A DNA stretch of 46,857 nucleotides from an uncultured Oscillospiraceae bacterium. Lineage in GTDB: Bacteria; Bacillota; Clostridia; Oscillospirales; Oscillospiraceae. The stretch's first letter is position 1, and every line of letters starts with the position of its first letter. The position numbers and the translations under genes are program-made. Location of the stretch: assembly GCA_944385465.1 (NCBI GenBank), contig CALWXH010000008.1:1-46857 (forward strand), written 5' to 3'. The notes beneath the pieces were generated by a model, which worked only from the letters and a program-made list of their open reading frames with translations, did not search any database and was not told the DNA's origin. This document shows positions 21,880-35,158 of the stretch, one piece after another.

Positions 21880-23367
21880 ATGGCGACAGGGATCAAAAAG
21901 CAAGGATACGGACCTTATATCATCAAGCTGCTGATTGGCCTGTTTCTCATTTTTGTATTTGGCTGGATCTGTCCCACCTGGGGAGATATCTCTCGGGCTG
22001 GCATTCAAACAATCTGGATCTTCTTCGGACTGATCTTCCTGTTGTCCAATTCGCAATTTGGGTTGATTCTGCCGGCGCTGCTGGGCTTTATCGCGGTGCT
22101 GCTCACAGGGGTTTATACCCCGGAAGGGCTGATTGCCGCCACCTTTGGAAACTCGACGGTGGTTCAGATCATCTTTGCGTACGTGCTCTGCCAGACGATC
22201 ATTGCCACTGGAGCCGGAGAACTCATTTCCAAGTGGCTGATTACGCGGAAGGTGCTGTATGGGAAGCCGTATCTGTTCTGCTTTGTGTTCTTCCTGGCTT
22301 CCTGGATTATGGGCGCCTTTGCCCACATCGGCGGCATCGTGTTTGTCCTGGCTCTGCTGGACTCCCTGATCGATCAGCTGGGTGAAGAAAAAGAGGGGGG
22401 CTTTAACCGCTGGATGTCCCTGGGCGCGTTTGTCTCGGCGGCCATCGGAATGGCATTGATCCCCTTCCAGGGACTTCCTCTGGTGATTTTCGGCGCCATT
22501 CTCACGGCGATGGCCCAGAGCGGCATTGTTCTGAACTATGCGGTGTATATGCTCTCTATTGTCGCTTTCTCCCTGGCTTTCACCGCGCTGTTCGCGGTGG
22601 TGATGAAGCTGGCTCGGGTAAACGTCACCAAGCTGCGCACCTTTGACATCAGCAGCATTGTGGGAAGCGAGGGTTCGGGACTGCGGATGAACCGCAAACA
22701 GGTGATAGCCTGTGTCATCTTCCTCTTTGCCATTGCCTATTCCGTTGTCACCGCTTTTGTCAGCACGGAGAGCGGTTTGGGACAGGCCCTGGCCACCTTT
22801 GATCAGTGTACCTGGTTTATCCTGGCCCTGGCCATCTTCTTCATCTTCCGGGAAGAGGGGAAGCCGCTGCTCAATGAGGAGCGTACCTTCCGTGACAGTA
22901 TTTCCTGGGGCATCGTGCTGGCGGTGTGCATTTTCAACGTGGTGGGCGGTATGCTGGCCAATCCGGAACTTGGAGTGCGTGGATGGCTAAACGCTGTTTT
23001 GGAGCCCGTGTTCTCCGGGCTGCCCTTCCCGGTGTTTATGCTGTTGATCTGCTTCTTCTCCACCATCTGCACCAACCTGTTTGCCAACGCGGCTGTGGGC
23101 CTGATTGTGGGAACCCTGACCATGCCCTTTGCCATTGTGTACAGCCAGACCATCGGCATCAATCTCACAGTCTACGGCGCGGCAGTGACCATGTCCGCCA
23201 TGTTCTCCTTTATGACCATGGCGGCTGCCGGCTATGTTCCCCTGTTTTTGACCAGACCCTGCATCCAGAAACACCAGAAGTTCCTTTGGGGTGTGGGCGG
23301 CGGAACCTGCTTGGGCGGAATTCTGCTTATGACCGTGGTCTTTACCCTGCTGGCCTATCTCCTGTGA
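21880..23367 (+). CDS. SLC13/DASS-type anion (carboxylate) permease
   Basis: A 495-residue inner-membrane protein with about 12 hydrophobic segments of the divalent anion:sodium symporter superfamily. Hallmarks are the repeat of re-entrant regions: TFGNSTVVQIIFAYVLCQT in the N-terminal half and CTNLFANAAVGLIVGTLTMP in the C-terminal half. The ribosome site AGAAAGGAGAGG precedes the ATG at 21880. It is the last gene of the operon with the two M24-fold proteins and ends at tandem terminators. It probably imports the substrate that those proteins process; a dicarboxylate or carboxylated amino-acid derivative is likely, but the exact compound cannot be read from sequence. Confidence 0.87.
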   Translation: MATGIKKQGYGPYIIKLLIGLFLIFVFGWICPTWGDISRAGIQTIWIFFGLIFLLSNSQFGLILPALLGFIAVLLTGVYTPEGLIAATFGNSTVVQIIFAYVLCQTIIATGAGELISKWLITRKVLYGKPYLFCFVFFLASWIMGAFAHIGGIVFVLALLDSLIDQLGEEKEGGFNRWMSLGAFVSAAIGMALIPFQGLPLVIFGAILTAMAQSGIVLNYAVYMLSIVAFSLAFTALFAVVMKLARVNVTKLRTFDISSIVGSEGSGLRMNRKQVIACVIFLFAIAYSVVTAFVSTESGLGQALATFDQCTWFILALAIFFIFREEGKPLLNEERTFRDSISWGIVLAVCIFNVVGGMLANPELGVRGWLNAVLEPVFSGLPFPVFMLLICFFSTICTNLFANAAVGLIVGTLTMPFAIVYSQTIGINLTVYGAAVTMSAMFSFMTMAAAGYVPLFLTRPCIQKHQKFLWGVGGGTCLGGILLMTVVFTLLAYLL

Positions 23368-24521: not shown

Positions 24522-24542
24522 GGCTTCCAATCCGAACAAAAA

Positions 24543-24576
24543 CAGGGCCCGCCGGCATACCTGCCGGCGGGCCCTG
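24543..24576 (-). terminator. Terminator of the molybdoenzyme operon (also end of yebC)
   Basis: 15-bp stem (24543-24557 with 24562-24576). On the minus strand it is followed by TTTTTGTT, a proper U-run for the operon ending with asrB. Confidence 0.8.
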
Positions 24577-24598
24577 CTGCGTCTATGGGACGGTTTTC

Positions 24599-25393
24599 TC
24601 AGTCGAAGAGGTTCTTGGCCCGGCTGTAGTTGAATACGGGGCCCTCCAGACACACATAGGTCTCGTTGATCTTGCAGTGGCCGCACTTGCCCACGGCGCA
24701 GGACATTTTCCGCTCGAAGGACACCCAGATCTTGTCCTCCACCGCGCCGTTTTTCAGGCACTCCAGGGCGGCAAAGTGCATCATCACCGGTGGGCCCACG
24801 ATGGCCACGTTATAGTCCGCAAAGTCCCGGAAGGGCACCTTGGGGATGTGGGCGGTGACCATGCCGGTCTCAAAGCCGGGGGCGGAGGAGTTGTCCAGGG
24901 TGGTGATGGTGTGGAACTTCTCCTGGCGCTTGAACTTCTCCAGCTCCTCGGTGAACAGCACGCAGTTGATGTCCTTGAAGCCGGCGATGAGATAGAGGGA
25001 GTTGATCTCCTCCGGGTGGTCACAGAAGTGGTTGAGCATGGTCTTGACCGGCGCCATGCCGGTGCCGCCGCAGATGACCACCAGGTCCTTGCCCTTGAAG
25101 TCGTCCACGGGGAAGGGCTTGCCGTAGGGGCCCCGCATGAAGAGCATATCTCCGGGCTGCAGGCCGAAGATGCCCTGGGTCAGCCGGCCCACCTTGCGGA
25201 TGGTGAACTCCACATAGCCCTCCCCCTTGCCGCTGACGGAGATGGGGGCCTCGCCCACCTTGGGGATGGACAGCTGGAAGAACTGGCCATGCTGGGTGGG
25301 CCCATCATATTCCACCCGGAAGGTGTACTCCGCCTGGGTCTCCTTCAGCACGCTCAGGATCCTGTGGGGGGTGGGAAGCATGATGTTGGTCAT
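24599..25393 (-). CDS. asrB: AsrB-like NAD(P)H-oxidizing iron-sulfur flavoprotein
   Basis: A 264-residue flavoprotein of the anaerobic sulfite reductase B / PyrK / sulfhydrogenase gamma family. The N-terminal FAD domain has GDMLFMRGPYGKPFPV, the NAD(P) domain GGTGMAPVKTML and IVGPPVMM, and the C-terminus a [2Fe-2S] site with cysteines in CAVGKCGHCKINETYVC followed by LEGPVF. It should take electrons from NAD(P)H and pass them to the AsrA-like partner, whose stop codon lies one base before this start. There is no asrC (siroheme subunit), so sulfite reduction by the classical AsrABC enzyme is not indicated. In this operon it is the electron entry of a molybdoenzyme complex. Symbol given by family, not by proven role. 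Confidence 0.88.
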   Translation of the reverse strand: MTNIMLPTPHRILSVLKETQAEYTFRVEYDGPTQHGQFFQLSIPKVGEAPISVSGKGEGYVEFTIRKVGRLTQGIFGLQPGDMLFMRGPYGKPFPVDDFKGKDLVVICGGTGMAPVKTMLNHFCDHPEEINSLYLIAGFKDINCVLFTEELEKFKRQEKFHTITTLDNSSAPGFETGMVTAHIPKVPFRDFADYNVAIVGPPVMMHFAALECLKNGAVEDKIWVSFERKMSCAVGKCGHCKINETYVCLEGPVFNYSRAKNLFD

Positions 25394-25394
25394 C

Positions 25395-27053
25395 TCAGTT
25401 GCCCTCCTTTTCTGCCGCGGCCAGGGCGTCGGTCAGGCCGTTGACGGTGTCCAGATAGTCGATGCCCTCGGGGCAGCGGTCGATGCACCGGCCGCAGCCC
25501 ACGCACATGTGCTCGCTGCCGCCAAAGCGCAGGTTGTAATCGTACACCTTGTGGAGCACCTTGAAGCGCATGTTGGCACCTTGGGTCTTCCGGGCCAGGG
25601 CGCCGCCGGCGGTCTGGGTGAAGTCCCGGAGCATGCAGGACGACCACACCCGGCGGCGTTCCCCGTCCCGGCTGGTCTCGTCGTAGATGATGTCTACCGT
25701 GTCGAAGCAGGAGCAGGTGGGACACACCGTGTTGCAGCCGCCGCAGGCGATGCACTTCTCGTCAAACTGGTTCCAGTACTCCAGCTTGCAGATCTCGCCC
25801 AGCTGCTGCCGGTCGCGGATCTTGGGCAGGCGGGCGTTGCGCCGGTTCTGGGTGACGAACTCGGGCATGAACTCAATGGGCACCTCGTCCTCGAAGTAGG
25901 GCAGGAAGTCCTCGTCCCGGATCTCCGCCAGGGCGCAGATGTCGTCAATGCGGATGGCCACGCTGTAGTCGTCGCACACATTGGTGCCCACGGAGACGCA
26001 GAAGCAGTTGTCAAAGCTCTCCCGGCACTCCAGCATGAAGATGTGCAGCTTCTCCCGCATCCGGCTGTAATAGAGATCGCTCTGGCCGTTGTGCAGGAAG
26101 ATGTTGTCCAGCCGGCGGATGGCGTTGATGTCGCAGGGCCGGGCGATGAGGATGATGTCCCGCTCGTCCTCCAGCTCCTTCTGGGAGGCGGACTCCCCGG
26201 TGAAGTAGAACATGGTCTGGGAGATGGGGTAGAAGACCTCCTTGGCGGAGAAGTGGGACTTCTCTTTGTAGACGATGTCGCTGAGCCTGTCGATCTCCCC
26301 GTATCGGATGAGGTCGGTGCCCTTGGGGCCCCGCTTTGGGATGCGCTTGGGGGCGAAGACGCGGTAGCGCTCCTTCAGCTGGGCGAGGATCTTGTCCATG
26401 CGCTCGGCCCGGACCGAGTAGCTGGGGGCCTGGCGCAGGGTGCCGTCGGTGAGGGCGGCCAACAGCTGCTCCTCCATCTGGAGGAAGCCCAGGGTGATGC
26501 GGCCCACGGCCTTGTAGAAGTCCACCCGGGCGTACCGGTCGATGTCGGCCACCAGCTGGGGCACCCAGTTGAGCAGGTGGTTTTCCAGGAAGTATTTCTC
26601 GTCCTGGGGGGCCCGCTGGTGGACCAGCAGGGACATGTACTCCAGCTCCAGGGCCAGGTGATCCTCCATCAGGTCGGAGTGGTCGGTCTCCCGGGCCAGG
26701 TTCTTTTCCCGGTAGATGCGTACCACGTCCTCCCAGGCCTCCTGCATAAACAGCTTCTTGGGGCTGGTGTAGACGGACTCGCAGGGGATGGCGGCGGCGC
26801 CGTCCGCCGAGCCGGCGGCCAGAAAGACGGTGGCGTAGTCCACCGCCAGGTCGTCCAGCGCCTCGGGGCCGCAGGAGTCCAGATAGCCCCGGAGCATGGC
26901 GTAGCCCTCGGCCAGGGTCTCGTTTTCCGCCTGGGGGAAGCGCAGCTCCTTCAAAGCGTCCAGCAGGGGCTGGTCCACCTCCACCCGGTACAGGCGGGAG
27001 AGCAGCCGGTACAGGTCAGCCCGGGGCTGCAGCTCGGATTTGGTGATCATCAT
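25395..27053 (-). CDS. TorD-type chaperone fused to AsrA-like iron-sulfur protein
   Basis: A 552-residue fusion. Residues 1-205 resemble TorD/DmsD molybdoenzyme chaperones (RADLYRLLSRLYRVEVDQPL, DYATVFL, AIPCESVYTSPKKL, DHLALELEYMSLLVHQRAP). Residues about 213-552 are AsrA: TMFYFTGE, IILIARPCDINAIRRLDN, LECRESFDNCFCVSVGTN, then Cys 434, 437, 440, 444, 447 and 449 and a second set at 517, 520, 523, 527 (EHMCVGCGRCIDRC). AsrA-type proteins relay electrons from the AsrB flavin. The ATG at 27051-27053 overlaps the stop of the upstream gene (ATGA), so translation is coupled. The frame is continuous with no sign of an internal start. A chaperone joined to a permanent electron-transfer subunit is unusual. 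Confidence 0.88.
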   Translation of the reverse strand: MMITKSELQPRADLYRLLSRLYRVEVDQPLLDALKELRFPQAENETLAEGYAMLRGYLDSCGPEALDDLAVDYATVFLAAGSADGAAAIPCESVYTSPKKLFMQEAWEDVVRIYREKNLARETDHSDLMEDHLALELEYMSLLVHQRAPQDEKYFLENHLLNWVPQLVADIDRYARVDFYKAVGRITLGFLQMEEQLLAALTDGTLRQAPSYSVRAERMDKILAQLKERYRVFAPKRIPKRGPKGTDLIRYGEIDRLSDIVYKEKSHFSAKEVFYPISQTMFYFTGESASQKELEDERDIILIARPCDINAIRRLDNIFLHNGQSDLYYSRMREKLHIFMLECRESFDNCFCVSVGTNVCDDYSVAIRIDDICALAEIRDEDFLPYFEDEVPIEFMPEFVTQNRRNARLPKIRDRQQLGEICKLEYWNQFDEKCIACGGCNTVCPTCSCFDTVDIIYDETSRDGERRRVWSSCMLRDFTQTAGGALARKTQGANMRFKVLHKVYDYNLRFGGSEHMCVGCGRCIDRCPEGIDYLDTVNGLTDALAAAEKEGN

Positions 27054-27679
27054 GCCTTGCGGCCTCCTTTCTTCCAGACGCTGTGCTCGACGCAGTCCTG
27101 GGGCAGCACGTCCACCCAGTCGGCGCTGCGCAGGATGTAGCGGACGGTGGGACCGTTGCCCTCGTCCCGCAGGGTGTGGATGTACTTGGGGTCGGTCTCG
27201 GCCAGCAGCTTGGACACCGCGCTGTCGGGATCGTTGATGTCCCCGTAGTGCAGGGCGGAGCCGGAGCAGTTGCGCACGCAGGCGGGAATGTCTCCCACCG
27301 CCCGCAGCTGCTCGCACAGGGTGCACTTGTCCGCCACCCGCAGCTCCTTGTTCATATGGATGCAGTCGTAGGGGCACTTGCGGGCGCAGCTGCCGCAGCC
27401 GATGCAGCTGGCGCGGTCGATGCGGATGACCCCGTCGTCCTCGTCCTTGTAGCAGGCGCCGGTGGGGCACACCTGGACGCAGGTGGGGTTCTCGCACTGC
27501 TGGCACATGGTGGTGAGGAAATACATCTGCAGGTCAGGGTAGACCCCGTTGGGGCCCACGGTGCACACCTTGTTGCGCCCCGGGCCCAGGGCCACGGTGT
27601 TCTCTAACTTGCAGGCCACCTGGCAGCCCTTGCAGCCGATGCACCGGTCGATGTCCACGACAAAGGTAAACTGTTTCAT
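27050..27679 (-). CDS. DmsB/PsrB-type four-cluster ferredoxin subunit
   Basis: A 209-residue electron-transfer subunit for four [4Fe-4S] clusters, as in DmsB, PsrB and TtrB. Cysteine groups in order: CIGCKGCQVAC, CQQCENPTCVQVC, CIGCGSCARKC, and CTLCEQL with CVRNC. It lacks a signal or membrane segment. The ATG at 27677-27679 overlaps the TGA of the catalytic subunit gene, and a GTG one codon earlier is possible. It should connect the molybdenum site to the AsrA-like relay encoded next. Confidence 0.92.
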   Translation of the reverse strand: MKQFTFVVDIDRCIGCKGCQVACKLENTVALGPGRNKVCTVGPNGVYPDLQMYFLTTMCQQCENPTCVQVCPTGACYKDEDDGVIRIDRASCIGCGSCARKCPYDCIHMNKELRVADKCTLCEQLRAVGDIPACVRNCSGSALHYGDINDPDSAVSKLLAETDPKYIHTLRDEGNGPTVRYILRSADWVDVLPQDCVEHSVWKKGGRKA

Positions 27680-30339
27680 CACACGCGCACCTCCTTGGTG
27701 GGTTCGGCGGGAACGGGCAGCCAGGGCCGGAAGTCCTCCGGGTTGAGCCAGACGCCCTCAGGGGCGCCCTCCGCCTTGTAGACCTTCACCTGGAAGGCCC
27801 GCAGGGTATAGGTGCCCACCACGTCGTTGAAGGGGGCGGTGGACTTGGTGAGCATGTTCACGTTCATCTCCCGCCAGCCGTGGGTGGGGGTGTTCAGGGT
27901 CTCGGGGTTCCAGAAGCGCTCCATATACACCGTGCCGGGATTGATGCCCTGGGTGACCTTGGCCACGCCCTGGGTACGGCCCCGGCGGGACTCCACCCAC
28001 ACCCAGTCGCCGTCCTCGATGCCGTATTTCTCCGCGGCGTCGGGGTGGATCCACAGCTCGGGAGCGGGGTACATCTCCCGCAGCCAGGGGATGTTGCGCA
28101 GGGTGTTGTGGTGATAGTAGGGAACCCGGCCGCCGGTGAACACCAGGGGGTACTCGCTGTCGGTGAGGGGACTCTCCGAGGGCTCCAGATAATAGGGCAG
28201 GGGATCGTAGTCCTCGTCGGCGGGCTCCAGGTCGATGGGGCTGAAGGGCCGGCCGGTGCGCCCCAGGGTGATCATGCTCTCCAGATACAGCTCACACTTC
28301 TTGGAGGGGGTGGGGAAGCCGGTGGGCTTGCCACCGTTGTGGGGATCGGCCTGCTGATAGACGTAGTAGCTGCGCCACTGGTCCAGGGGCAGGTACTCGA
28401 TGGGCGCCTTGGCGGCGAACTCCTTCCAGCTCATGCCCAGGCGGTTGACCCAGTGGCTGAGGAACTCGTCCATGCTGTCCCAGTAGGCCAGGTCGTGGCC
28501 CATGTACTCCGGGTCAAAGGCCTTGGCGCAGGCCTCGTGGCCCAGCTCGCCGCAGCGCTTGGCCAGCTTGGACCAGAACAGGGTCTCGTCCATGGTCTCC
28601 CACAGGTGGGTGGTGGCCTGACGGGCCACCAGGGTGTTGCAGGTCTCCACCAGCATGTCGGTCTCCAGCCACTCCTCCGAGGGAATCAGGATGTCGGCAT
28701 AGGCGGAGAAGGAGGTGGGGTACATGTACACGTGGACGATGAAATCCAGCTTGTGGATGGCCTGCTCCCAGCGCTGGCTGTCGGCGGTGGCCCCCAGCTT
28801 GTTGCCGGAGCGGTCAATCCACACCCGGGGCTGATAGGGCTTGCCGGTGAGCACCGCCTCCAAGATGCTGGAGGGGTGGCCCGCCCACCAGATGCCCAGG
28901 CCCTTGTGGGCCCGGCCGCCCAGCCGCTTTTTCAGCTGCTCGGGGGGCAGGCGGTCCGCCGCCACGGGGACGGGGTAGTTGGGCATATCGAAGCAGCCGC
29001 TGGTGCGGAAGCGCTGGAGCAGGGCGCCGGGCCGCTCCACATTGCCCATGAGGATGTCCAGGGTGGCCGCCCCCATGGCGGCCTGGACGGAGTTGGGGGT
29101 CTGGTCGGTGGCCACGCCGATGGCCAGGCCGCTGGGCACGTTGTCGGTGAAGACGTGGATGGCTTCCTCAATCTTGGCCGGGTCCAGCCAGCAGATCTCG
29201 GCGCCCTTCTCCAGGGTGAACGCCTCGCACCGCTCCCACAGCAGCTGATAGCCGGTCTTGCACCGCCGGCCGTCCACCAGGAACTCGCCCTCCAGCGCCA
29301 CGTCCAGCTCGTCGTTCCAGGGGTACTCCAGGGGCTGGGCCCGGTTGGTTTTCTTATCCCATACCATGTAGGTGTCCGGCTGGTTGGGGTCGTCGCTCTT
29401 CTTGGGCCGCAGGAGCATCTTGGTCTCCACGTCCACCAGATAGGGCAGGTTGGTCCACTTGGTGACAAAGTCCGCGCTGTACAGCTTGTGCTCCAGAATG
29501 TAGCGGATCCAGGTCAGCTGCAGGGCCACGTCGGTGCCCGGGCGGATGGGCAGCCACACGGTGGCCTTGGCGGCGTCGGGGGTGAAGCGGGGGTCCACCA
29601 CCACGGTCTTGACCCCCTTGGCCCGTAGGTCCGCCACCATGCCGCCGCCGGAGGCGGGGCAGGAGTAGGAGGGGTCGGTGCCCCACAGCACCAGGGCCTG
29701 GATGGGGGTGTCATCGGTGAAGTACAGCTCCAGGGCGTTGGAGTCGGCGATGCTGGGGTCCACGCCGCCGTACATCATGGTGTAGGCCAGCACCCGGGGC
29801 AGATAGCACTGGGCGCAGCCCGGCTCGAACCAGTTGGGGGTGCCGAAGATGTTGCAGAAGCGGGCGATGCTCCAGATCTCCGGGTTGCCGCCGCCGCCGG
29901 TGGAGCAGAATACCGTTTCAGCGCCGTACTTCTCCCGGGTCTCCATGAGCTTTTTGGCGATGGTGTCCAGCGCCTCGTCCCAGGAGATTCGCTTCCACTT
30001 GCCGCTGCCCCGCTCGCCCACCCGCTGCATGGGATACTTGTTGCGGTTGGGGTGGTACAGGGCCTGAATGCCGGACAGGCCCTTGGCGCACATGCGGCCC
30101 TTGCTCATGGGATCCTCCGGGTTGCCCCGCAGGCTCACCACCCGGCCGTTTTTCACCGTGGCCAGCACGCCGCAGTTGGCGATGCAGGCCCGGCAGGCGG
30201 TCTTGATGACCCGGACGCCGTCCTCCGGCTCCTGGCCGCTCTTGCAGGGACCCAGGGTGCGCACGCCATCCAGGGCGGAACCGATGTCCGGGATGCGGAT
30301 GGCGCTGATGTAGTCCTTGACGGGAAATCTCTCTTCCAT
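27679..30339 (-). CDS. Molybdopterin oxidoreductase catalytic subunit, cytoplasmic
   Basis: An 886-residue DMSO-reductase-family enzyme (Mo- or W-bis-PGD). A [4Fe-4S] site is formed by Cys 49, 52, 56 and 84, followed by the electron-relay Lys of CAKG. The likely metal-ligand region is GTPNWFEPGCAQCYLPR, with Cys 175 or 178 as candidate ligand. The C-terminus has the dinucleotide-binding domain (FTGGRVPYYHHNTLRN, GDWVWVESRRGRTQG). The start at 30339 follows AAGGAGG. No Tat twin-arginine signal is present and no membrane anchor gene follows, so the enzyme is predicted cytoplasmic. The substrate is unknown: sulfur oxyanions, aromatic hydroxyl groups and others are handled by this family. Confidence 0.92.
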   Translation of the reverse strand: MEERFPVKDYISAIRIPDIGSALDGVRTLGPCKSGQEPEDGVRVIKTACRACIANCGVLATVKNGRVVSLRGNPEDPMSKGRMCAKGLSGIQALYHPNRNKYPMQRVGERGSGKWKRISWDEALDTIAKKLMETREKYGAETVFCSTGGGGNPEIWSIARFCNIFGTPNWFEPGCAQCYLPRVLAYTMMYGGVDPSIADSNALELYFTDDTPIQALVLWGTDPSYSCPASGGGMVADLRAKGVKTVVVDPRFTPDAAKATVWLPIRPGTDVALQLTWIRYILEHKLYSADFVTKWTNLPYLVDVETKMLLRPKKSDDPNQPDTYMVWDKKTNRAQPLEYPWNDELDVALEGEFLVDGRRCKTGYQLLWERCEAFTLEKGAEICWLDPAKIEEAIHVFTDNVPSGLAIGVATDQTPNSVQAAMGAATLDILMGNVERPGALLQRFRTSGCFDMPNYPVPVAADRLPPEQLKKRLGGRAHKGLGIWWAGHPSSILEAVLTGKPYQPRVWIDRSGNKLGATADSQRWEQAIHKLDFIVHVYMYPTSFSAYADILIPSEEWLETDMLVETCNTLVARQATTHLWETMDETLFWSKLAKRCGELGHEACAKAFDPEYMGHDLAYWDSMDEFLSHWVNRLGMSWKEFAAKAPIEYLPLDQWRSYYVYQQADPHNGGKPTGFPTPSKKCELYLESMITLGRTGRPFSPIDLEPADEDYDPLPYYLEPSESPLTDSEYPLVFTGGRVPYYHHNTLRNIPWLREMYPAPELWIHPDAAEKYGIEDGDWVWVESRRGRTQGVAKVTQGINPGTVYMERFWNPETLNTPTHGWREMNVNMLTKSTAPFNDVVGTYTLRAFQVKVYKAEGAPEGVWLNPEDFRPWLPVPAEPTKEVRV

Positions 30340-30375
30340 ATTGGCCTCCTTCATTTCTTTTGGTGGACAATCTGT

Positions 30376-30391
30376 CTGCGCGGCCGCGCAG
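30376..30391. other. 16-base perfect palindrome between regulator and catalytic gene
   Basis: CTGCGCGGCCGCGCAG lies between the GntR gene stop and the catalytic subunit ribosome site. It could be a small mRNA structure tuning the ratio of regulator to enzyme. Confidence 0.35.
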
Positions 30392-30396
30392 TGGGG

Positions 30397-31161
30397 TCAG
30401 GCGGGGGTGTCCGCACCGGTTTTCTCCCCCTCGGGAGGGAGCGACTCCTCCTGTTCCGTGTCGGTGCGGATGAGGTCGATGTGCCGGCACATGATGTCCT
30501 GGGCCAGCAGCTCGTCCCCGGCGGCGATGGCGTCCACCAGCTGCCGGTGGAACTCCACAGAGTCGTAGTACTTCTCGGGGTGCCGGCCATAGGTGCGCTC
30601 GTACAGCCCCATGTCGGTGCCGGCGGTGTGGACGATGTTGACGAACTGGATGTAGAACTGGTTGTGGGACGCCGCGGCGCACTGCAGGTGAAACAGGTCG
30701 TCCAGCTGGAGCATGTCCCCCAGCCGCTTTTCCCCCCGGATGTAGGCGGGCACCGCCTGTTCCATGACGTCCACCGCCTCATAGAGGGCCTGCACATCCT
30801 CCGGTTTGGCGTTGCGGGCGGCCAGCCTGGCGGAGGCGCCCTCCACCAGGGAGCGGGCCTCAAACAGGTCGTCGGCCAGGGCGTGGTCCAGCATGGTATA
30901 CGTGTGCAGGATCCGGCCCAGCACGTCGGGGGAGAAGGAGGCAATGAAGTTGCCGTCTCCCTGGCGTTTTTCCACAATGCCGATGGCGGACAGGGCGCTG
31001 ATGGCCTCCCGCAGGGGTACCCGGGAGATGCCGAGATATTCCGCGAACTCCCGCTCTCCCGGAAGCCGGTCTCCCGGTTTCAGTTCGCCCTGGTGGATGC
31101 GGTCCAGAATGTGGTCGATCACCTGCTGGCTCACGCTGGTTTTCTGAATGATTTTTCCCAT
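30397..31161 (-). CDS. GntR family regulator, FadR (FCD) subgroup
   Basis: A 254-residue repressor-type protein. Residues 1-75 hold the winged HTH (LKPGDRLPGEREFAEYLGIS, RVPLREAISALSAIGIV). Residues 95-225 are an all-helical FCD effector domain with metal/ligand residues in DDLFHLQCAAASHN and FHRQLVDAI. It has a good AAAGGAGG site before the ATG at 31161, and is the first gene of the molybdoenzyme operon, 57 bp upstream of the catalytic subunit. A matching operator lies on its own promoter, so it very likely represses the whole operon until an effector binds. The effector, probably the enzyme's substrate or product, is unknown. Confidence 0.92.
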   Translation of the reverse strand: MGKIIQKTSVSQQVIDHILDRIHQGELKPGDRLPGEREFAEYLGISRVPLREAISALSAIGIVEKRQGDGNFIASFSPDVLGRILHTYTMLDHALADDLFEARSLVEGASARLAARNAKPEDVQALYEAVDVMEQAVPAYIRGEKRLGDMLQLDDLFHLQCAAASHNQFYIQFVNIVHTAGTDMGLYERTYGRHPEKYYDSVEFHRQLVDAIAAGDELLAQDIMCRHIDLIRTDTEQEESLPPEGEKTGADTPA

Positions 31162-31192
31162 GGTCGCCTCCTTTTCAACCTTGCTGCGCTAA

Positions 31193-31231
31193 TGGTAATA
31201 CCACTCTACCATGAGAGGGCGGTTCTGTCAA
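31193..31231 (-). promoter_or_regulatory. Promoter and FadR-type operator of the molybdoenzyme operon
   Basis: Minus strand TTGACA (31226-31231), 17-bp spacer, TAGAGT (31203-31208). The perfect inverted repeat TGGTATTACCA at 31193-31203 touches the -10 and covers the expected start site. It fits the FadR-subgroup pattern TNGTNNNACNA, the site type expected for the regulator encoded just downstream. Confidence 0.8.
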
Positions 31232-32986: not shown

Positions 32987-35158
32987 TTACCGTTTTCTCG
33001 GCCTTCTGCGGTAGAGCTTGGCAAAGGCCAGGGCGGCGAGGAGCACCCCGAAGCATATCCCGTACAGGATGAGATTGCCGGAAGAGGAGGCGCTGGTGCT
33101 GCCGCCGCCGAAGCTGAAGTCCGGCATGTCGCCCATCCCGCCGCCCCCGCCGAAGTTGCCGGGGAAGGAGCCGCCGGAGGGGGATTCCTCGGCGGGGGCC
33201 TGGGACTCCGGCGCGGTGCTTTCCTGGGTGGCGCCGTCCGACGGCGCGGGGTCCGGGTCTGTCTCGGTGTCATCGGGAGATTGGCTGCCGGATTGGGAGG
33301 GATCGAAGCCTTCGGGCAGTTCCCCATCGCCGAACTGGGAGGGGGCGAAGCCCTCGGGCAGTTCCCCGCCGCCGAACTGAGAGGGATCGAAGCCGCTGCC
33401 GTCCTGCCCGGAGGAGGCCAGCAGCTGTACGGACGCGCCATCGGCCGCCCCCTGGGTGGAGACTGCGGACGGACTGCCGGTGCCCACGGCGTCCGAGCCG
33501 CCTTCTTCGCTGTCGGAGCCGAAGTCCCACAGGCTGTCCCCCATGCTCATGCTGCCCATGACGCTCAGGTCAAGGTGGGAGGCGTCGATGAGGGCGTCGG
33601 AATCCCGCTGTTCGCTCTCCACGGAGGGGATGGTGCCGTCGAGCTGGCCGCGGATGGACTCGCCCCGGAGCTGTACCATCTCGTACAGGGTCTCCACGGC
33701 GGTGAGGTACTCCTCATAGGTGTAAAAGGCGTTGGGGTCGCTCTCCACCAGCGCGTCGATCTGGCTGCGGGTGCGGGTATAGAACTCGTCAAAGCCGCCG
33801 CCGAAGATATACTCCTCCACCAGCCGGTCCAGATATTCATAATAGGCCCGGTGGTACTCCTCCTGTTCCATCAGGGTGTCGAAAAACTCCGTGCCGGAAA
33901 AGGCCTGGTCGATGGCGTCGTTGACCACGCTGGTGGCGGTGTCCACGCCGCTGGCCATGCTGCCCATACCGCCCATGCCCCCCAGGGCCAGGTTGTAGTC
34001 CCAGGGGATGATGTTCAGCTGGCCGTCGGACTCGTACAGATAGTAGTTGTGGGCCATCATGCCGGTGAGGCTGTCGTCGTTGACGGAGAACACGTGGACC
34101 GCCATATACCCCAGAAGATTGTCGATGTCCATGGACTCCTCCAGGTCGGTGCCCTCTGAGATGTTCTTCAGGGCGGCCACCACCCGCTTGTGGTCGCTTT
34201 TGGTGGTGTCGGTCACCTCGCCCTCCCAGATGGTGGAGTAGCTGTCTAGGTCGTCGTCGATATAGTTCAGATCCGCGCCGCCGCCCCCCATGGAGAAGAT
34301 GCCGCCGCCCCCGCCGCCGGAGAAGCCGAAGCCAAAGTCAAAGTCCTCCAGGTCAAAATCCTCCAGATTTGGCGGCGTGCCCTGGCCGCCCTGGGCGTTG
34401 TCCTCCTCCTGGGCGGAAAGGGAGAGGGCGGAGGCGTCAAACAGACGCTCAAACTGGGAAAAGTCAAACGCACCGCTGTCTCCCTGGCTGGGGAGGGTCA
34501 TGTCCCCCAGATCTCCGCCGATGTTCATGCTGTCCGGCTTGTAGAGCGCGCCGTTTTCCGTCCCGTAGTTGCGCAGCAAAAAGCTGTCCTCCACGGCCTC
34601 CAGGGCCAGGTAGACCCCCCAGTACGCGCCGTTGACGTAGATCTTGGCGTAGTTGTACAGGGAGGCGTCCACCCCGAAATACTGATACATATCGTAGATC
34701 AGCGCCTCTTTCATATTGGTGGCGTCGGCGTAGTTGTTGTTCAGCACCAGTTTATCCAGGCCGTAGCAGGTCTGCCCATCCACATACTGGTCGAACTCCA
34801 GCTTGAAGCTGTAGCGGTCGGTGGTGGGGGCGCTGGCGATGGAGGTGAGGCTGGTGTTCCCTTTGGGGCGGATGCCCACCCGGTAGAAGGTCTCACCGTT
34901 AATCTCCACGTCGCACTGGTAGTACTCCTCCGCAGTGGCGTTGGCCAGCATGTCTTCCCAGTCGGCCTCGTCCATGATGATGTTGACGCTCATGGGCTCG
35001 TCGGTGTCGAACAGCTTGGACTCGTATTCCATCGTGATGCCTGTGCCGCCCAGGGCCTGGGTGAGTGTTCCGGCCAGCAGCATGGCCGCCAGGCACAGAC
35101 AGACGGCGGCCGCCATGATCACAGCCACGATTTTGGTGATGTGCTTGTTCGCGATCAT
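32987..35158 (-). CDS. CotH-family protein kinase, membrane anchored
   Basis: A 723-residue exported protein. A hydrophobic segment near residues 9-33 serves as signal or anchor. The CotH kinase-like domain spans about 45-480, with GIRPKGNTSLTS, KLVLNNNYADATNMKEALIY, YVNGAYWGVYLALEAVEDSF and the metal-site-like IIPWDYNLALGG. A glycine-rich insertion (GFGFSGGGGGG) interrupts it. The tail has tandem units (PSQFGGGELPEGF, PSQFGDGELPEGF), a Ser/Pro/Asp-rich stretch, a second hydrophobic helix near 695-714 and a basic end (YRRRPRKR). CotH of Bacillus spores phosphorylates serines of coat proteins. Start supported by GGAGGGAAGC. It is the last gene of an operon with a VTC polymerase and a DUF4956 protein, so a spore role should not be assumed. 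Confidence 0.88.
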   Translation of the reverse strand: MIANKHITKIVAVIMAAAVCLCLAAMLLAGTLTQALGGTGITMEYESKLFDTDEPMSVNIIMDEADWEDMLANATAEEYYQCDVEINGETFYRVGIRPKGNTSLTSIASAPTTDRYSFKLEFDQYVDGQTCYGLDKLVLNNNYADATNMKEALIYDMYQYFGVDASLYNYAKIYVNGAYWGVYLALEAVEDSFLLRNYGTENGALYKPDSMNIGGDLGDMTLPSQGDSGAFDFSQFERLFDASALSLSAQEEDNAQGGQGTPPNLEDFDLEDFDFGFGFSGGGGGGIFSMGGGGADLNYIDDDLDSYSTIWEGEVTDTTKSDHKRVVAALKNISEGTDLEESMDIDNLLGYMAVHVFSVNDDSLTGMMAHNYYLYESDGQLNIIPWDYNLALGGMGGMGSMASGVDTATSVVNDAIDQAFSGTEFFDTLMEQEEYHRAYYEYLDRLVEEYIFGGGFDEFYTRTRSQIDALVESDPNAFYTYEEYLTAVETLYEMVQLRGESIRGQLDGTIPSVESEQRDSDALIDASHLDLSVMGSMSMGDSLWDFGSDSEEGGSDAVGTGSPSAVSTQGAADGASVQLLASSGQDGSGFDPSQFGGGELPEGFAPSQFGDGELPEGFDPSQSGSQSPDDTETDPDPAPSDGATQESTAPESQAPAEESPSGGSFPGNFGGGGGMGDMPDFSFGGGSTSASSSGNLILYGICFGVLLAALAFAKLYRRRPRKR

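Follow-up and report, generated by a model that had tools for sequence, protein, structure and literature searches.

A five-gene unit on contig CALWXH010000008.1 of an uncultured Oscillospiraceae bacterium, a gut-type member of the Clostridia, appears to encode a cytoplasmic, NAD(P)H-dependent reductase of the aromatic dehydroxylase type, which would serve its host as a fermentative electron sink. This reading, taken as a whole, is given a probability of about 0.45, and the electron path by itself, with no substrate attached, is considered probable on the anatomy of the unit, that is, on its motifs and on knowledge of the protein families. The DNA analyzed covers positions 1 to 46,857 of the contig (hereafter the window). 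The catalytic subunit, which is neither DmsA-like nor an acetylene hydratase, belongs to a well-delimited subfamily on the acetylene hydratase side of the family.

The unit lies on the minus strand and runs from 31231 to 24541, from a sigma-70-type promoter to a terminator. All five open frames were found where the first-pass annotation had placed them, and the last four overlap or sit 1 nucleotide apart. In order, they encode an FCD-type GntR/FadR regulator of 254 amino acids (30397..31161; PF07729, PF00392), a catalytic subunit with a molybdenum or tungsten bis(pyranopterin guanine dinucleotide) cofactor (Mo/W-bisPGD; 27679..30339), a ferredoxin subunit of the NrfC/TtrB/DmsB type (27050..27679; Fer4_11) whose four [4Fe-4S] motifs were read from the sequence, a fusion protein in a single frame (25395-27053), and an AsrB-type flavoprotein with an NAD(P)-binding domain and a C-terminal [2Fe-2S] motif (24599..25393; PF00175, PF10418). 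The fusion protein combines a TorD-type chaperone domain at residues 1-205 (26439..27053) and an AsrA-type domain with two [4Fe-4S] motifs (25395..26438; PF17179). The open reading frame of the catalytic subunit begins at 30354 and would give 891 amino acids; the reading of 886 amino acids is preferred because a Shine-Dalgarno-like AAGGAGG precedes the second ATG (30339). No twin-arginine signal, membrane anchor or asrC was found in the unit.

Relatives were sought in one genome per species, 84,980 species being scanned through two conserved peptide patterns; relatives with neither peptide motif escape such a scan. It found 95 relatives, and the counts below refer to the best 80 of these 95, which were fetched. 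Four loci (L009, L010, L011 and L013) duplicate the contigs of L019, L084, L035 and L053, respectively, and are excluded from the 80, and one extra genome (L161) was fetched separately on top of them. The profile of the catalytic subunit and the residue counts were built on 54 aligned members.

The domains over cut-off in the catalytic subunit (Molybdop_Fe4S4, Molybdopterin and Molydop_binding) place it in the Mo/W-bisPGD (DMSO reductase/MopB) superfamily. When the profile was compared with the PDB, acetylene hydratase (2e7z) ranked top with 265 bits, followed by PsrA (230 bits), perchlorate reductase (186 bits) and then formate dehydrogenases; pyrogallol transhydroxylase (4v4c) reached 42 bits over about 180 positions. 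Over 398 genomes of the phylum, the two members present scored 1722 and 1638 bits with the profile and no other listed match exceeded 478 bits; the family is therefore sharply bounded. A quick tree (59 rows, with SH-like approximate likelihood-ratio test, SH-aLRT, support only) recovered the family as one clade on a long stem (SH-aLRT 100), inside a group with acetylene hydratase (SH-aLRT 99) and with PsrA, NapA and DmsA outside. Published catechol dehydroxylases are also placed nearest to acetylene hydratase, away from the transhydroxylase, in the excerpted text of the source (PMC7028382).

The residues around the metal agree with this grouping in one respect and depart from it in another. 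Cys183 (29806..29808), the predicted Mo/W ligand, aligns with Cys141 of acetylene hydratase and is a cysteine in 54 of 54 members; Cys141 is described as the tungsten ligand of that enzyme, and Asp13 as specific to and essential in its subfamily, in the portion of the paper available (PMC12096430). At the position equivalent to Asp13, 52 of the 54 members have Ile and two have Thr, which rules out acetylene hydratase as such. The N-terminal [4Fe-4S] motif (Cys54, Cys57, Cys61 and Cys89, then Lys91; 30088..30195) is likewise invariant in all 54. The first-pass annotation had described a DmsAB-type core, and for the catalytic subunit this has to be abandoned: the Cys ligand is universal, the enzyme groups with acetylene hydratase, the score to TIGR02166 is 205 bits against a cut-off of 777.7, and Escherichia coli DmsA lies far outside the group in the tree, so a DmsA/YnfE type was rejected. 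Two further types were rejected, PsrA/PhsA by its 275 bits against the PRK15488 cut-off of 694 and by the place of PsrA, itself a long branch in the quick tree, outside the group (SH-aLRT 99), and pyrogallol transhydroxylase/resorcinol hydroxylase by 42 bits to 4v4c compared with 413 bits for an enzyme neighboring the unit in Sporomusa acidovorans (L064). The genome of the window (G000) holds a second Mo enzyme on contig C38 (L004, L100), which falls on the NapA/formate dehydrogenase side of the tree. In an outgroup genome (L164:6673-9254), the neighbors of an acetylene-hydratase-like Mo gene are a UroD-like gene and one for a corrinoid protein whose best NCBIfam match is MtbC, below cut-off; this neighborhood suggests demethylation next to Mo chemistry.

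In the electron module, the AsrA domain scores 385 bits to TIGR02910 (cut-off 323) over residues 212-545 and AsrB scores 338 bits to TIGR02911 (cut-off 289). The TorD domain passes the cut-off of Nitrate_red_del (PF02613) at residues 46-168 in the same frame as AsrA, which bears out the proposed TorD-AsrA fusion, and scores 79 bits to PRK04976, below the 132-bit cut-off. No AsrC (TIGR02912) over cut-off was found in the genome of the window, a 97%-complete draft, consistent with the earlier statement that the unit has no siroheme subunit; among 12 genomes, AsrC was over cut-off in four, at places that are never inside the Mo unit. A sulfite reductase was accordingly rejected, since AsrA and AsrB pass their cut-offs without an AsrC doing so in the genome. 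Because these are sulfite-reductase equivalog cut-offs, automatic annotation could mislead: AsrA and AsrB calls over curated cut-offs in such genomes need not mean sulfite reduction, and false calls of that capacity are possible. The window AsrA is 42-43% identical to the AsrA of five asrC-linked clusters. The 31 AsrAs of Mo units form a cluster that excludes four of those five, and the fifth (L170) is their nearest neighbor; support for the Mo-unit group is 83 alone and 99 with L170 included. The Asr trees also include a distant Asr-like pair (L090) that was labeled as Mo-linked and lies outside any Mo unit, which causes an extra change counted there. This pair (L090:19738-21650) is a second Asr/sulfhydrogenase-like A-B pair of 28-30% identity, on the opposite strand. 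At four loci (L041, L042, L043 and L047), a second AsrB-like gene follows the first one in the Mo unit.

The neighborhood is not a one-off. When it was searched for in relatives, AsrA and AsrB were both present next to the Mo gene, in the same orientation, in 60 of the 80, and 58 also showed TorD and the ferredoxin. AsrA only was found in three (in part in L014 and L017, and at a contig end in L075), the contig ends before AsrAB could appear in seven, and another layout was present in seven. Among the loci where both TorD and AsrA could be read, 33 have them as one fused protein and 28 as two proteins, with four changes between the two states over 41 tree rows. The AsrAB layout occurs, among others, in Eubacterium oxidoreducens, E. 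ramulus, Parasporobacterium paucivorans, Loigolactobacillus bifermentans and Clostridium thailandense. The unit is sparsely distributed, the Mo gene being present in 4 of 391 genomes of the class sample, the window's own included, and in 5 of 42 genomes of its genus, where moaA occurs in all five carriers and in 10 of the 37 non-carriers (P = 0.0035, Fisher's exact test). An Epulopiscium locus (L049) has Mo, ferredoxin and TorD genes, no AsrAB nearby, and a following gene of the old yellow enzyme (OYE)-like type.

A minority of relatives carries a different set of partners. Seven of the 80, plus L161, combine a twin-arginine translocation (Tat) signal with no AsrAB beside the Mo gene; the seven are Sporomusa acidovorans twice, S. 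silvacetica, two Acidobacteriota, a Telmatospirillum and a bin labeled Campylobacter. All eight catalytic subunits start with a twin-arginine signal, RR-x-FLK. An NrfD query matched seven of these eight loci (not L069) and no other locus, and NapG- and NapH-like queries matched six loci. In S. silvacetica, the ferredoxin gene is followed on its 3' side by an NrfD/DmsC anchor, TorD, NapG-like and NapH-like ferredoxins, both below curated cut-offs, and a further ferredoxin. These parts are of the same kinds as those of the Eggerthella dehydroxylase clusters, for which the excerpted sources describe a Tat signal, ferredoxin and anchor (PMC7028382) and a chaperone and membrane-spanning ferredoxins (PMC11887054). 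In S. acidovorans, the anchored Mo unit is followed at a distance of about 1 kb by a second Mo enzyme, of the pyrogallol-transhydroxylase type (L064:18631-22020; the 413 bits to 4v4c given above), with a ferredoxin subunit and then the start of a gene that is OYE-like by eye.

The two layouts are separated in the careful family tree of 55 rows, in which one branch (100/99) divides the 8 anchored from the 47 other rows. Dropping the five rows that were labeled AsrAB without AsrAB in view (L020, L022, L034, L049 and L080) still leaves one change between layouts. With an outgroup, the eight anchored rows again form one clade (99/99); in the free tree the AsrAB rows are not one clade, the anchored rows standing beside Clostridium L052 and L060 (90/86), and a single AsrAB clade is not rejected (P = 0.51). 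The first-pass annotation had named as a refuting case a siroheme subunit and membrane anchor regularly adjacent in relatives. The anchor is indeed there, in a minority only (seven of the eight Tat loci), and its adjacency is not regular; because one branch divides these relatives from the rest, they are read as a partner switch and not as a refutation. The relatives suggest one enzyme re-wired between membrane respiration and cytoplasmic fermentation. The outgroup tree was expected to show the exported form as the older one and did not; the root is unsure and the stem long. Since that tree gives no such support, a change from exported to cytoplasmic is carried by the N-terminal sequences alone, through the relict-signal argument that follows.

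Twin arginines at the aligned place were found in none of 68 readable N-termini on the AsrAB side, whereas all eight on the anchored side have them (two RR motifs, in L009 and L019, are artefacts of an over-long reading frame). This, together with the window protein itself, upholds the cytoplasmic location first proposed. Many AsrAB-side subunits open with what looks like the skeleton of a Tat signal minus its arginines, such as NKKDFLSATNITGITSAL in Clostridium L052 and SNMDFLAATTVIGLDEAV in E. oxidoreducens, for which the Sporomusa signal NRRQFLKATAVTGIAAAF is the reference. Scored with a matrix that was derived from the eight signals and ignores their RR columns, 37 of the 68 N-termini beat 95% of their own shuffles, where about three would be expected; these 37 rows are related by descent and do not amount to 37 independent cases. 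The core that comes next has a mean hydropathy of 0.12 in the 37 and of 1.36 in the eight signals. In the window, the corresponding N-terminal segment (PVKDYISAIRIPDIGSALDG; 30265..30324) is a possible relict of such a skeleton without the twin Arg; in the same matrix comparison, its own stretch VKDYISAIRIPDIGSALDG is not significant alone (P = 0.22), and that of the close relative L018 gives P = 0.007. The AsrAB-side N-terminus is a possible relict Tat signal, which in our reading may have been kept because TorD still binds there.

In the proposed mechanism, hydride from NAD(P)H would be passed to the flavin adenine dinucleotide of AsrB, and electrons would then travel singly through the [2Fe-2S] cluster of AsrB, the two [4Fe-4S] clusters of AsrA and the four of the ferredoxin subunit. 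From there the N-terminal cluster of the catalytic subunit would hand them to the Mo/W ion with its Cys ligand, the site at which an organic acceptor would be reduced. The role of AsrAB as an electron port, proposed at the outset, is supported by this anatomy; the direction of flow is inferred. TorD would load the cofactor, and its fusion to AsrA may allow it to bring the electron-input subunit into contact with the catalytic one. FadR would repress the unit through TGGTATTACCA until an effector is present. The substrate would most likely be a polyhydroxylated aromatic compound of plant origin from which a hydroxyl group is removed, in the manner of the catechol dehydroxylases, and this reaction would re-oxidize the NAD(P)H produced in fermentation. 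Plant phenolics are weakly pointed to by the clade, by the cultured carriers and by the transhydroxylase-type gene pair of L064; among the carriers, E. oxidoreducens and E. ramulus are given as phloroglucinol degraders in the part of the source consulted (PMC10470551).

A wider evolutionary version of this proposal seems doubtful to us and is offered as such. TorD is normally a Tat proofreader. The lineage may have moved between two bioenergetic worlds by one whole-module swap, with a Tat-exported, quinol-linked, NrfD/NapGH-like form on one side and a cytoplasmic, NAD(P)H-consuming AsrAB dehydroxylase on the other; the Tat skeleton would have been kept as a docking site for the chaperone, and TorD, in many members welded to AsrA, would couple cofactor loading with donor delivery. 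If true, Clostridia and lactobacilli would have in it a first aromatic dehydroxylase of the bisPGD type that depends on NAD(P)H.

Several observations weigh against the dehydroxylase proposal. In the quick tree, the family sits on its long stem while acetylene hydratase and PsrA are flagged as long branches, and the best plasmid-borne homologs show about 29% identity; for these reasons the transfer of function is weak. As to the link with the catechol dehydroxylases, the same tree bears only on the shared grouping with acetylene hydratase. When the window sequence alone was compared with the PDB, PsrA of Thermus (193 bits) was about level with acetylene hydratase (190 bits). Three loci (L020, L034 and L049) have room for AsrAB and neither gene was found nearby, and the close kin L014 and L017 retain only part of AsrA. 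E. ramulus is not known to dehydroxylate the 3,4-dihydroxyphenylacetic acid that it makes from quercetin, and the donor may be either NADH or NADPH. Neighboring genes add little: BaiCD-like flavoenzymes (L018, L020, L026, L046, L049 and L058) and UroD-like proteins (L014, L018, L020, L042, L058 and L093) lie near the unit in 6 of the 80 loci each, with L058 having supplied both queries and L018 and L020 being near kin. Because genomes hold many copies of both families (2-13 BaiCD-like and 3-31 UroD-like in the eight genomes counted), any enrichment of OYE- and UroD-type neighbors is at most modest and serves as a hint only. Seven neighboring proteins picked by eye were all MFS_1 (7/7), a selection that gives no rate. 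Separately, L018 (6971-10205) and L020 (7279-10514) each carry a BaiCD-like Fe-S flavoenzyme and a UroD/MtaA-like protein 3' of the Mo unit, in the same direction and operon-like.

Two alternatives keep both the complex and its partners and change the acceptor or the chemistry. The acceptor could be inorganic or a small oxo-compound (thiosulfate or polysulfide, arsenate, an S- or N-oxide), which would make the enzyme the counterpart of a respiratory reductase, located in the cytoplasm and linked to NAD(P)H. The top single NCBIfam score, the 275 bits to PhsA thiosulfate reductase, and the PsrA match of the window sequence just mentioned speak for this, as does a Cys in PsrA at the aligned ligand place. 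That score is far under its cut-off, however, the family profile ranks acetylene hydratase above PsrA, and PsrA, NapA and DmsA branch outside the acetylene hydratase group; an acceptor of this kind is judged unlikely. We think it improbable, too, that the reaction is a reduction or saturation of an aromatic ring or of some other organic group (e.g., a resorcinol-type or enone reduction) with no removal of hydroxyl. The phloroglucinol-degrading carriers E. oxidoreducens and E. ramulus would suit such a role, and the excerpted text mentions a ferredoxin-dependent resorcinol reductase, but the known phloroglucinol reductase is there a different, NADPH-dependent enzyme (PMC10470551). BaiCD-like flavoenzymes near the unit in the six loci, including the query source L058, would fit as well. 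Parasporobacterium degrades phloroglucinol too. No bisPGD enzyme of this clade is known to us as a ring reductase, which counts against the idea.

The other two alternatives question the redox role itself or its direction. That the enzyme is a non-redox hydratase or lyase like acetylene hydratase, with AsrAB merely keeping the metal reduced, would fit its nearest characterized relative by profile and tree, and that relative is stated to require a reduced W(IV) center in the available portion of the source (PMC12096430). The residues at the Asp13 position (Ile in all of the 54 members but two, which have Thr) and the conservation of a dedicated four-cluster subunit with a full NAD(P)H module make this very improbable. 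An oxidative direction, in which an organic donor is oxidized at Mo/W and AsrAB makes NAD(P)H, is hardly favored either. The anatomy leaves the direction unset, and AsrAB-like modules of sulfhydrogenases work both ways. The hosts, however, would be fermenters with surplus NADH, and the NapG/NapH-like proteins of the anchored relatives, although below curated cut-offs, point to quinol-driven reduction. The catechol dehydroxylases, the nearest published redox group, are reductases in the excerpted source (PMC7028382). The NAD(P)H-dependent dehydroxylase is the reading that we retain.

The control sites of the unit are predicted from short motifs. A candidate sigma-70-type promoter, TTGACA-17-TAGAGT with an extended TG, lies 5' of the regulator gene (31203..31231, minus strand; 10 of 12 matches, by consensus match only); two such matches were found, compared with 1.0 expected in shuffles. 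The palindrome TGGTATTACCA (31193..31203) overlaps the promoter end and is a likely FadR operator, which would imply autoregulation. Its form TGGT-A(T/A)T-ACCA begins 31-43 nucleotides 5' of the FadR match, once per locus, in all seven FadR loci searched; these seven represent six different contigs (L009 being L019), and L010, the eighth locus with FadR, duplicates the L084 contig. TGGT-N3-ACCA is what we take to be the FadR-type operator consensus. FadR matches are limited to close kin (eight loci), and in the close relative L016 the FadR query gave no match. In L012, L052, L053 and L060, a conserved divergent LysR pair (76-81% identical to that of L060) lies upstream of the Mo gene, where the window has FadR, and weaker single LysR matches (25-41%) occur in Agrilactobacillus, Loigolactobacillus and several Lachnospiraceae or Eubacterium loci. 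The unit ends at a putative intrinsic terminator found by a sequence scan, with a 17-pair stem and a T run (24541..24578, minus strand). Beyond the unit, a 495-amino-acid hydrophobic protein (21880-23367) is transporter-like by eye; it has no Pfam or NCBIfam match at 1e-3 and none in relative loci L009-L013. A CotH-kinase-type protein (PF08757) with a Ser/Gly/Pro-rich tail is encoded at 32987-35158.

The soluble NAD(P)H-linked Mo/W reductase and its membrane-anchored sister could be compared directly in named strains: E. oxidoreducens DSM 3217, E. ramulus ATCC 29099, Parasporobacterium paucivorans and Loigolactobacillus bifermentans for the first layout and Sporomusa for the second. If the substrate is a plant phenolic, the unit would add a route to gut and rumen polyphenol metabolism outside Coriobacteriia.

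Each part of the unit is known, and the combination of an acetylene-hydratase-group enzyme, an AsrAB port and a TorD-AsrA fusion was not found described in searches of an open-licence library that lacks most subscription papers. The catechol dehydroxylases (Dadh, Cadh and Hcdh of Eggerthella, and those of Gordonibacter) are bisPGD enzymes near acetylene hydratase, like the window enzyme (PMC7028382); in the excerpts cited, those of Eggerthella have an N-terminal FeS motif (PMC11574389) and those of Gordonibacter are cytoplasmic (PMC12771579). The window unit differs in its dedicated AsrAB module and TorD-AsrA fusion, and its enzyme retains the N-terminal FeS motif though cytoplasmic. Acetylene hydratase is the closest solved relative by profile and shares the tree group and the Cys ligand, whereas the window enzyme has Ile for Asp13, is accompanied by a ferredoxin subunit together with an NAD(P)H module, and stands a long branch apart. 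From the anaerobic sulfite reductase AsrABC, the window has AsrA and AsrB that pass equivalog cut-offs, and no AsrC over cut-off. Archaeal sulfhydrogenases use the same family of electron module (87 bits to subunit beta of 9nez; NF040833 and NF040835 below cut-off), but their beta and gamma subunits are coupled to a hydrogenase and the window module to a Mo/W enzyme. With the DmsABC and PsrABC reductases, the unit shares the alpha-beta plan and a TorD/DmsD-type chaperone, and eight relatives share the Tat signal and seven the NrfD-type anchor; the window unit itself is without signal and anchor, and its alpha subunit branches apart from DmsA and PsrA. The unit, seen together with its relatives, presents a clear case of module exchange.

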